DNA of 37,348 nucleotides from Vulcanimicrobiota bacterium (GTDB lineage Bacteria; Vulcanimicrobiota; Vulcanimicrobiia; Eremiobacterales; Eremiobacteraceae): assembly GCA_014304875.1 (NCBI GenBank), contig JACRUD010000086.1, forward strand, positions 1-37,348, in the 5' to 3' direction. The notes beneath the pieces were generated by a model. That model had not been told where the DNA came from. It made no database searches and worked only from the letters and a program-made list of their open reading frames with translations. How positions within the stretch are numbered: the first letter of the stretch is position 1; each line of letters opens with the position of its first letter. Position numbers and translations under genes: made by a program. Of the stretch, positions 12,898 through 16,078 are shown piece after piece.

Positions 12898-12925
12898 TTC
12901 AGCGGTGCGTTCAAGAGGAGATGGC

Positions 12926-13408
12926 GTGATCGGAGTAGGCCAAAACATTCCATCTGTCGGGGCAGTTGATGACTCCGGTGCTTTTCGGCGGCTTGGCGAA
13001 TTTGGCGGTTCTTGGCTGGTGCTGTGGTTCTACTCGAAGGATGCGACGCCGGGCTGAACGGATGAAGCATCGCAGTTCCGCGATGCTGACGGCGAGTTTC
13101 GCCGGCTGGGCGCCTACGTCGTCGGCGTGAGCCGCGATGCCGCTGCTTCGCACCAGAACTTCAGGGCTCAGCAGAGATTGCCGTTCCCGCTGTTGGCCGA
13201 TACCGACGAGGAGATCGTCAAAGCGTTTGGAGTCCTCGTCGAGAAAAAAAATTACGGACGCACGTCTCTCGGGGTCGCTCGCTCCACGTTCCTGATCGAC
13301 CCCGACGGCGTGGTACGCAAAGTTTGGCCAAAAGTGTCGGTCGCGTGCCATGCCGCCGAGGTCCTAGCAGCTTTGGCGAAGCTCGCGGACGCGCCGACCA
13401 GCCCGTAG
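12926..13408 (+). CDS. Selenocysteine-containing peroxiredoxin (PrxQ/BCP family), read through TGA
   Basis: Two same-frame halves join across a single TGA (13055-13057) into one 160-residue PrxQ/BCP protein. The first half ends WLVLWFYSKDATPG and the second begins TDEASQFRDADGEF. In the family the motif is FYPKDDTPGCT.EA, so the TGA falls exactly on the peroxidatic cysteine (residue 44). The remainder is well kept: VVGVSRD, FPLLADTDEEIVKAFGV, GVARSTFLIDPDG and KVWPKV. The usual resolving Cys five residues later is Ser49; the only remaining Cys is C141. The enzyme would reduce peroxides through a selenol. GTG 12926 is chosen because AGAGGAG lies 5 bases upstream and this gives the normal N-terminal length. 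A disabled pseudogene is the alternative, but conservation on both sides and the hairpin that follows argue for Sec insertion. Confidence 0.82.
13055..13086 (+). promoter_or_regulatory. Selenocysteine UGA codon and putative bacterial SECIS element
   Basis: The in-frame TGA at 13055-13057 is followed by nine bases and then a perfect hairpin: GCATCGC (13067-13073), loop AGTTCC, GCGATGC (13080-13086). Bacterial SECIS elements lie directly downstream of the UGA, have a short apical loop with a G in its first two bases, and place that loop roughly 16-37 bases after the UGA. Here the loop starts 17 bases after the TGA and reads A-G-U-U, with a G-U pair of bases as in the E. coli fdhF element that SelB binds. 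The hairpin lies wholly within the coding sequence. Confidence 0.72.
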
Positions 13409-13935
13409 CGCACTTCCCCATCGCGCAGCGTCTCGCTCACCTTGCCCCTGACACGAACCCAGTCGCCTGAGTTCGCGCTCAGTTGTTTGGCGGGGTAGAC
13501 ATCGAAACCGACCGCAACGGAATCGGCCGCGCAACAGGATGTTATCGTTCGCGAGATGCTGGCCGGCGCAAGCGGCCCCGCCCGATGCCAGTTGCCCGAT
13601 ACGAGCACTTGTCGCCCTATGACGCTGTGCGGGTCGGCATCCAGTTGATCCAGCACCAACAGCAGATCGCCCGAGCTTGACGTTTCGACGGCGTGCGTCA
13701 ACACCGGGCCGGAGACTGGTGGAGGAACGCGCGGCAGCCCAAAGCCTAGCGCGGCGCCCAGCAAAGCACCTGCCAGAGGCGGGCGTTTGCTTTTCCACCA
13801 TGCCAACCCGCACAACACGGCGCCGGCGGAAGCGAGGATCCAAAGCGGCATCGTGACGAGCGCGCCGGCCGTACCGCAAACGCATGCAGCGAGCATTCCA
13901 GCTCCAAGCCCGCACAGGCTCTGCCGCTCGATCAT
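13252..13935 (-). CDS. TIGR03943-family putative permease subunit (UPF0703/YcgQ-like)
   Basis: The 227-residue protein has two N-terminal membrane segments (about residues 7-27 and 30-47) and an extracytoplasmic domain with SVIGRQVLVSGNW, TITSCCAADSVAVGFDVY (Cys134-Cys135) and GDWVRVRGKV. These match the motifs of TIGR03943 (GxxVxVxG, CCAADAxPVG, GxWVxVxG). Members are encoded next to a UPF0718-type permease, as here, and are thought to form a transport system with an unsettled substrate. The start ATG overlaps the permease stop as ATGA. The last 52 or so codons (residues 176-227) lie antisense to the 3' end of the peroxiredoxin gene and read past the conserved domain. The tail may therefore simply be readthrough to the first stop. 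Confidence 0.75.
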   Translation of the reverse strand: MIERQSLCGLGAGMLAACVCGTAGALVTMPLWILASAGAVLCGLAWWKSKRPPLAGALLGAALGFGLPRVPPPVSGPVLTHAVETSSSGDLLLVLDQLDADPHSVIGRQVLVSGNWHRAGPLAPASISRTITSCCAADSVAVGFDVYPAKQLSANSGDWVRVRGKVSETLRDGEVRYGLVGASASFAKAARTSAAWHATDTFGQTLRTTPSGSIRNVERATPRDVRP

Positions 13936-14807
13936 GCGAGCGCGGCAGCGGCAGCGCATGCCGCCGCAGCGGCCGCGGCGGCGAGCAGCATGCGCCGCGG
14001 GCCGAAATGCCGGCGCAGCAACGACAGTTGGCGCACATCCAGGCACTGCGCAGCGATCATAAATGCGGCCTGCGAGGCGGGCGCTGGGGATAACACACGA
14101 GCCAAAGGGGCATCAGAGGCAGCGCACGGCGACAGCAGCGCTCCGACGATCGCGGCCAGCAGCGGCGAATCGGTGTGCGTCAGCAGATCCGGGGCCGCAG
14201 CGCGCCAGCAGCCGGCGACGGCTGCCGCCATGCCCAAAGCGGTAAAGGCGCGAGCCAGGTGTTCGACAGGGGTGGCGGCCTGATCGGAGCACCGGGCCGG
14301 ACAGCGCATCCGGGCACCGCACCACAGCGCGGCCGTCAGCACGGCGGCCACGAAACCAGCGGCTAGGCGGATGAAGAGCATGCGATTGCCGAGGGTGACG
14401 CGCGTCGCCAATAAGGCGGCCGGTCCGCAGCACGCGCCCCACGTCAGTGCGAAACCTGCAAGCGGGGCGGGCAGACGCGCAAGCGCCGGAGCGAATCCGT
14501 TCATGCTGCAGTCGCAACCCGGAGAAAAGAGTGCCGCGCATAGCGACACCACGAGCTGGCGGCGTGCGGACAACAGTCTTTGAGGGAGTCTTTGCAGCGA
14601 CGCGGAGGCCGCCACGCCGACAAGGATATACGGAGCGGACCCTAGGACTATTGAACAGCAGTACGTCCAAGCGCGAAAGCTCGCGAGCGCAAGCGTCGAT
14701 AGCGTCGGAAGTGCAGTCGGGGGCGGCCACAAAGAAGCCGCGCCCACGCACAGAGCGAACGCAGCCGCCAAGCCACAGCGAGCCCAAGGGCGCTTTTGTT
14801 TAGGCAT
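13932..14807 (-). CDS. UPF0718/ArsP-type permease (YcgR-like)
   Basis: The product is about 291 residues with around eight hydrophobic segments. It carries the family's cysteine motif in SPGCDCSMNGFAPAL (Cys98, Cys100; usual form P-x-C-x-C-x-x-P) and a second Cys pair in WGACCGPAALLATRV (126-127). These are inner-membrane permeases (DUF318). Relatives include ArsP, which exports organoarsenicals, and Bacillus YcgR, whose substrate is uncertain. The partner TIGR03943 subunit overlaps by ATGA downstream. The start at 14807 is the first ATG outside hisS. Extension to 14936 would run 127 bases into hisS and add a non-hydrophobic Arg-rich stretch, so I reject it. The C-terminus is a long alanine-rich helix. 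The cysteines suggest a soft metal or metalloid substrate, which is an inference. Confidence 0.75.
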   Translation of the reverse strand: MPKQKRPWARCGLAAAFALCVGAASLWPPPTALPTLSTLALASFRAWTYCCSIVLGSAPYILVGVAASASLQRLPQRLLSARRQLVVSLCAALFSPGCDCSMNGFAPALARLPAPLAGFALTWGACCGPAALLATRVTLGNRMLFIRLAAGFVAAVLTAALWCGARMRCPARCSDQAATPVEHLARAFTALGMAAAVAGCWRAAAPDLLTHTDSPLLAAIVGALLSPCAASDAPLARVLSPAPASQAAFMIAAQCLDVRQLSLLRRHFGPRRMLLAAAAAAAACAAAAALA

Positions 14808-14809
14808 TC

Positions 14810-16078
14810 GTGGACAAGAGAACCGCTCCGCGTGGCACTTTCGACATACTTCCCACGGACTCGAACCGCTGGCTAGCGCTCGAGCGTGCCGTCGACGAGC
14901 TGTGCGCGCGCTTCGGGTACGGTGAGATACGGACACCGATCTTCGAGAGTACAGACGTCTTCGTGCGAACCATAGGCGAAGGCACGGATATCGTCGACAA
15001 GGAGATGTACACGTTCACGGATCGGGGTGGCCGCAGCATGACCCTGCGGCCGGAGTTCACGGCTCCCACAGCGCGCGCCGCGCTGGAACACAATCTCTTG
15101 CAGAACTTGCCTCTCAAGGTCTACTATCGCGGTCCCATCTTTCGCTACGAGCGGCCCCAAAAAGGCCGCTATCGTCAGTCCCACCAGTGGGGAGCCGAAT
15201 GCTTCGGCGTCGCCGGGCCGCAAGCCGACGCCGAGATTATCGCGCTTGGCATGGAGCTGATTCGCCGCGAGACCTTGGCCGACGTCGAGCTCGGAATCAA
15301 TTCGATGGGTTGCGATGTCTGTCGGCCCGCGTACCGCGAGGCGGTGGTCGCGCACCTGAAAGACAACGCGACCACGTTGAGCGAGAACTCGCGTGAGCGG
15401 CTGTCGCGCAATCCTTTGCGCGTGCTCGATTCAAAAGATCCGTCCGACCGTGCGGTGATCGCAACCGCACCCCGGGTCGATTCGTACCTGTGCGATGCTT
15501 GTCGCGAACACTTCACGGCGGTTCGAGCGTTGCTCGCAAGCATGGGGATCACGCCGACAGTCGACCCGAAGATCGTCCGCGGCCTCGACTACTACACGCG
15601 CACGGTCTTTGAGATGTCCGCCGGGGGCCTCGGTACCCAAAACGCGTTGTGCGGAGGAGGCCGCTACGATGGGTTGATCGCCGCGATGGGTGGTCCCGCG
15701 ACGCCCGCGGTGGGGCTCGCGATGGGGATGGAACGTCTGCTGATGGCGGCCGGCCCCCGCCGCGCCGAATCGCTGAACGGAAGGCCGCGCACTGAAGTCG
15801 CCTTCGTTGCTTTGGACGAGCCGAGCGCGCGATCTCTGGTTCCCATCCTGCATGCCTTTCGTCGCGCTGGTATCTCAGCCGATATGGACTACACGCTGCG
15901 CAAAGTCGACAAGCAGATCCGCGCGGCGGGTCAACAGGGAGCGCGCGTCGCGGTTATCTTGGGAAACGACGAGCTGGCGCGAGGCGAAGCCACCGTTCAG
16001 GATCTGACGACTCGCGAACGGCAGCGGGTCAAACTCATTGAATTGGAGCACGACGTCAAAGAGCGTCTGGCGCGTTGA
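14810..16078 (+). CDS. hisS: Histidyl-tRNA synthetase
   Basis: The 422-residue class II aminoacyl-tRNA synthetase begins with the typical APRGTFDILP. Motif 2 is VYYRGPIFRYERPQKGRYRQ (about residues 104-122). The histidine-specific motif is RGLDYYTRTVFEM (257-269), with CGGGRYDGL and motif 3 AVGLAMGMERLL (300-311) after it. The C-terminal anticodon-binding domain ends near VKERLAR. Two CxxC pairs (168/171 and 228/231) lie in the insertion domain and may bind zinc. The GTG at 14810 sits two bases from the start codon of the divergent permease gene, so its promoter must lie within that gene's coding region. Its stop overlaps the accB TTG as TTGA. Confidence 0.96.
   Translation: MDKRTAPRGTFDILPTDSNRWLALERAVDELCARFGYGEIRTPIFESTDVFVRTIGEGTDIVDKEMYTFTDRGGRSMTLRPEFTAPTARAALEHNLLQNLPLKVYYRGPIFRYERPQKGRYRQSHQWGAECFGVAGPQADAEIIALGMELIRRETLADVELGINSMGCDVCRPAYREAVVAHLKDNATTLSENSRERLSRNPLRVLDSKDPSDRAVIATAPRVDSYLCDACREHFTAVRALLASMGITPTVDPKIVRGLDYYTRTVFEMSAGGLGTQNALCGGGRYDGLIAAMGGPATPAVGLAMGMERLLMAAGPRRAESLNGRPRTEVAFVALDEPSARSLVPILHAFRRAGISADMDYTLRKVDKQIRAAGQQGARVAVILGNDELARGEATVQDLTTRERQRVKLIELEHDVKERLAR

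Follow-up and report, generated by a model that had tools for sequence, protein, structure and literature searches.

Does the in-frame TGA of the peroxiredoxin gene at positions 12926 to 13408 of the window (the whole 37,348-nucleotide stretch of DNA that was analysed) mark a dead or truncated gene, or does it specify selenocysteine (Sec) at the catalytic site? The features from which the question arises are the following.

12926..13408, + strand: PrxQ/BCP-type peroxiredoxin gene, 160 codons plus a TAG stop, with codon 44 a TGA predicted to be read as Sec.
13055..13057, + strand: in-frame TGA at the codon for the peroxidatic Cys (T41-P42-G43-U44), read directly and recurring in relatives.
12915..12919, + strand: probable Shine-Dalgarno sequence AGGAG, 6 nt 5' of the GTG start, read by eye.

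Between the GTG at 12926 and the TAG at 13406-13408 the frame holds a single internal stop, the TGA of codon 44, and the 160-residue read-through product matches the AhpC-TSA domain (3.3e-33) as one continuous domain spanning the TGA. The sequence-only reading, in which one peroxiredoxin is split by a TGA at the peroxidatic Cys of its TPGC motif (residue 44), was therefore correct, coordinates included. In the homologue alignment, codon 44 falls in the column of the TPG(C/U) motif that always holds the catalytic Cys or Sec; T41 and R119, the catalytic Thr and Arg, likewise stand in invariant columns. Against the six nearest relatives compared, the protein is 47-56% identical before the TGA and 58-62% identical after it, in agreement with the claim that both sides are conserved; the 3' part of the gene is therefore under selection. 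A global reassignment of TGA was rejected, as purH, hisS and several other genes of the window terminate in this codon. A sigma-70-type promoter site was looked for and none was found, and Rfam at gathering threshold returned no match in the window.

The TGA could instead be a real stop, giving either a truncated product of 43 residues or two proteins, the second restarting at the GTG at 13127. The mechanical list of open reading frames does contain a 93-residue frame from 13127. Neither piece, however, yields a complete thioredoxin fold containing the catalytic residue, the domain match and the model (pLDDT 94) both run unbroken through the TGA, and a hairpin and Sec genes (described below) are present, so that termination at this codon has almost no probability left to it.

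On the opposite strand, a TIGR03943/DUF1980-type open reading frame (13252-14046, -) runs towards the peroxiredoxin gene and, in the form listed, overlaps its 3' end by about 157 nt; the part recognisable as a domain stops at about 13413. The frame after it on that strand (13932-14936, -) is weakly ArsP-permease-like.

Among the NCBIfam models, the two best-scoring families for the peroxiredoxin are the PrxQ models NF053650 (146.7 bits against a cut-off of 260) and NF006960 (102.8 against 140), both of which are narrow equivalog models whose curated cut-offs the protein does not reach. PrxU (NF040737) scores 55 bits, likewise under its equivalog cut-off, and membership in that subfamily was rejected by score. 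Solved PrxQ structures are matched at 2e-38, and the AlphaFold2 model (pLDDT 94.3) lies closest to BCP/PrxQ, with a TM score of 0.96 to 9a4d_B (a BCP chain in a complex model) and of 0.89-0.90 to PrxQ crystal structures from Burkholderia and Xanthomonas. The Xanthomonas campestris PrxQ/BCP (PDB 3gkn, 5iiz) shares fold and family with the window protein at about 44% identity; it has Cys48 and Cys84, whereas the window protein has a predicted Sec in place of the catalytic Cys. The Pro of the P-x3-T-x2-C/U motif, found in at least 90% of the aligned homologues, is absent and replaced by Ser37, a point weighed against the selenoprotein reading. Ser also occupies this site in one locus (L108, genome G006) of the second clade described below, and the substitution may alter peroxiredoxin activity.

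Homologues provide the most direct view of codon 44. The PrxQ-type set comprises 104 distinct loci with an alignment score of at least 270, the window included, and the codon is TGA in 24 of them, TGC or TGT in 80, and nothing else in any. A comparison of this kind had been proposed from the sequence alone, along with a search for additional stops in relatives: the TGA forms carry no further stop in the core domain, apart from some located close to the C-terminal limit of the alignment. One random stop among 160 codons would have a chance of roughly 1/160 of falling on codon 44, and chance placement is ruled out because TGA stands there in 23 other distinct members of the subfamily, and TAA or TAG in none. 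All named TGA-carrying matches of the window's subfamily belong to Candidatus Eremiobacterota/Vulcanimicrobiota.

These counts also bear on the possibility that a Cys codon (TGC/TGT) became TGA through mutation or through a sequencing or assembly error, leaving the gene dead or misread. The change takes one substitution and the window comes from a fragmented metagenome-assembled genome (MAG), both of which would suit such an explanation. Against it stand the TGA at codon 44 in 23 other loci from independent MAGs, the rise in identity past the TGA, and the complete Sec machinery of the genome. On these comparisons a pseudogene or sequencing error appears highly improbable and is effectively excluded for the window gene.

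A candidate decoding signal lies immediately downstream of the TGA.

13066..13087, + strand: bSECIS-like hairpin with an 8-bp stem, AGCAUCGC (13066-13073) pairing with GCGAUGCU (13080-13087).
13074-13079, + strand: apical loop AGUUCC of this hairpin, starting 16 nt after the UGA.

The stem begins eight nt after the UGA, and the second and third nucleotides of the 6-nt loop are G and U. Published rules for bSECIS elements call for a loop of 3-9 nt, a stem of 4-16 bp, a minimum free energy of -7.5 kcal/mol or lower and a loop located 16-37 nt after the UGA, with a G as the first or second loop nucleotide and frequently a G or U after it (PMC13188914). The 43 nt after the UGA fold at -15.3 kcal/mol (z = -1.7), and this energy, the 8-bp stem, the loop AGUUCC and the 16-nt spacing all lie within those constraints. 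The 51 nt from the UGA on form two hairpins at -23.2 kcal/mol (z = -3.2), the first of which is the one at 13066-13087. Note that z-scores of -3.2 and -1.7 are moderate, and they were counted against reading the codon as Sec. In the PrxQ-type set, the mean number of stem pairs over 7 positions is 5.8 in the 24 TGA forms versus 3.7 in the 80 Cys forms, a difference for which relatedness inflates the rank test, and complete 7/7 pairing occurs in 11 of the TGA forms and in none of the Cys forms. The stem positions covary modestly (a score as high arises in 12 of 500 shuffles), because they overlap conserved codons. Three TGA relatives (L116, L117 and L121) fold the hairpin region differently.

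The genome to which the window belongs is a fragmented MAG of 2.49 Mb, 93% complete with 0.4% contamination. The four genes for which a search had been recommended, selA, selB, selC and selD, are all present in it. The tRNA-Sec (selC) scores 75 bits and has the anticodon UCA; selA (530 bits) and selB (326 bits summed) reside on the contig that carries it, and selD scores 373.5 bits. The selD gene has an in-frame TGA of its own, in the motif CAGUASK (locus L017, contig C195, minus strand, first base of the TGA at L017:1734), and therefore at least one other gene of the genome depends on Sec decoding. Formate dehydrogenase was considered as a further user of Sec in this genome and rejected, since its matches were all sub-threshold and contained no stops.

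The same genome holds a second peroxiredoxin gene (L050:1333-1869, contig C39) with an in-frame TGA at L050:1540 in the catalytic position (FTPGU). It has a signal-peptide-like start and a downstream hairpin around CCGCC-AGGUU-GGCGG, and its product is probably an exported Sec peroxiredoxin. The gene that follows reads as a TlpA/ResA-type thioredoxin-like protein.

Several points can be read directly from the sequences: the protein belongs to the PrxQ family, its catalytic codon is TGA, a hairpin follows, the genome encodes the Sec machinery, and relatives have only TGA or Cys codons at this site. Considering the TGA in 23 other PrxQ-type loci together with the hairpin and the Sec genes, we agree with the sequence-only reading that this is a functional enzyme rather than a pseudogene, and we assign a probability of about 96% to a PrxQ/BCP selenoprotein with Sec44 as its peroxidatic residue, inserted by SelB and Sec-tRNA-Sec with the help of the in-frame hairpin. 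That Sec is actually incorporated, that the protein acts as a peroxidase and what reduces it are predictions from sequence. SelB and Sec-tRNA-Sec, acting with the hairpin just downstream, would insert Sec44 at the UGA; Sec44 would then attack peroxide and become a selenenic acid; and the oxidised form would be reduced by an external thiol, either a thioredoxin-type protein or a low-molecular-weight thiol, in a one-Sec cycle.

The external reductant is suggested by the absence of a resolving Cys at both sites known in PrxQ proteins. Residue 49, the +5 site, is Ser, and the site of Xanthomonas Cys84 in helix 3 corresponds to Arg80 in an alignment with the C84S mutant. That the usual resolving Cys is replaced by Ser49 had been read correctly from the sequence, but the replacement is not linked to Sec. 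Many Cys forms in the phylum share Ser49; the resolving Cys was therefore lost independently of the switch to Sec, and Ser49 as an adaptation to Sec was rejected.

As resolving partner, the earlier reading had offered either C141 or an external thiol. C141 is the only Cys of the window protein and lies just before the last helix; internal resolution of Sec44 through it would give a Se-S bridge. No relative has it, however: where column 141 is aligned it holds Gly or rarely Asp, Glu or Ala, and never Cys. Other Sec forms mostly have Cys98 or no second Cys, and the few with another Cys do not carry it at 141; the known PrxQ resolving sites lie elsewhere, at the equivalents of residues 49 and 80. 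An internal bridge is thus unlikely, and C141 as a Sec-linked change was rejected, being unique to the window protein. With Ser49 and Arg80 at the resolving sites, C141 unique and the Sec forms mostly having Cys98 or no second Cys, the one-Sec cycle with an external thiol is the best model.

The distribution of the two forms within the phylum was assessed with a maximum-likelihood tree of 113 proteins, 33 of them Sec forms. At least four Sec/Cys changes are needed, three of which are forced by well supported branches, although the number and direction of the switches are uncertain because the tree leaves many of the phylum's inner forks unresolved. The window protein falls in one group with those of three genomes of the same family (G005, G011 and G004), all of them Sec forms (support 100/94). 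The window's own family also contains a second, more divergent PrxQ clade, in which the catalytic codon is TGA in nine of nine loci.

L107-L115 (G010, G006, G009, G008, G003, G001, G007, G002 and G012, in this order): second-clade loci, TGA at the catalytic codon.

Each of these loci has its own hairpin further downstream, mostly a stem AGUCAGC/GCUGACU around GGUCU or GGUCC, an apical loop resembling the classic loop of E. coli fdhF. It is probable, at good though not strong confidence, that within Eremiobacterota the catalytic residue of PrxQ has alternated repeatedly between Sec and Cys, while the second clade has Sec in all nine loci seen.

Among genomes whose PrxQ has the TGA, 28 of 32 have a strong tRNA-Sec (over 60 bits), versus 21 of 36 among those with a Cys form (Fisher p 0.014, from a hand tally and a test that treats genomes as independent of phylogeny). 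Of the four TGA-PrxQ genomes with no strong tRNA-Sec, three still have selB over the cut-off. The fourth, G001, belongs to the same family and carries a TGA peroxiredoxin, but its assembly (96% complete, 370 contigs) yielded no convincing tRNA-Sec or full-length selB, which may be an assembly gap of a fragmented MAG.

Sec at the peroxidatic site is reportedly also found in PrxU of Eubacterium acidaminophilum, as described by Sohling and colleagues in 2001 (cited in PMC13188914); the window protein has this feature in common with PrxU but belongs by score (55 versus 147 bits for PrxQ) to another peroxiredoxin subfamily. Sec-containing peroxiredoxins with a TxxU motif are filed under COG1225 (Bcp) (PMC9312934; also PMC13188914), and 91 such genes have been counted in 78 organisms (PMC5029168). 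By domain and motif the window protein is of this kind, having an AhpC-TSA/Bcp domain, a predicted Sec in TxxU and an in-frame UGA, and it differs in its host, a member of Eremiobacterota. Our literature search, which covered few subscription journals, found no paper linking Eremiobacterota with selenocysteine.

The Sec peroxiredoxins are a long-known selenoprotein family, and the new element is their recurrence across the little-studied phylum Eremiobacterota. Apart from its value for gene calling and as a source of natural pairs, the finding concerns a known enzyme class. This gene and those related to it are missed or broken up by standard gene callers, and selenium use in Eremiobacterota is therefore under-counted. 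With about two dozen Sec forms and about forty Cys forms of a single short peroxidase, the phylum offers matched natural pairs for measuring the benefit of selenium. If the repeated switching is true, Eremiobacterota would be a good natural system for learning when Sec beats Cys in a peroxidase that has no resolving Cys.
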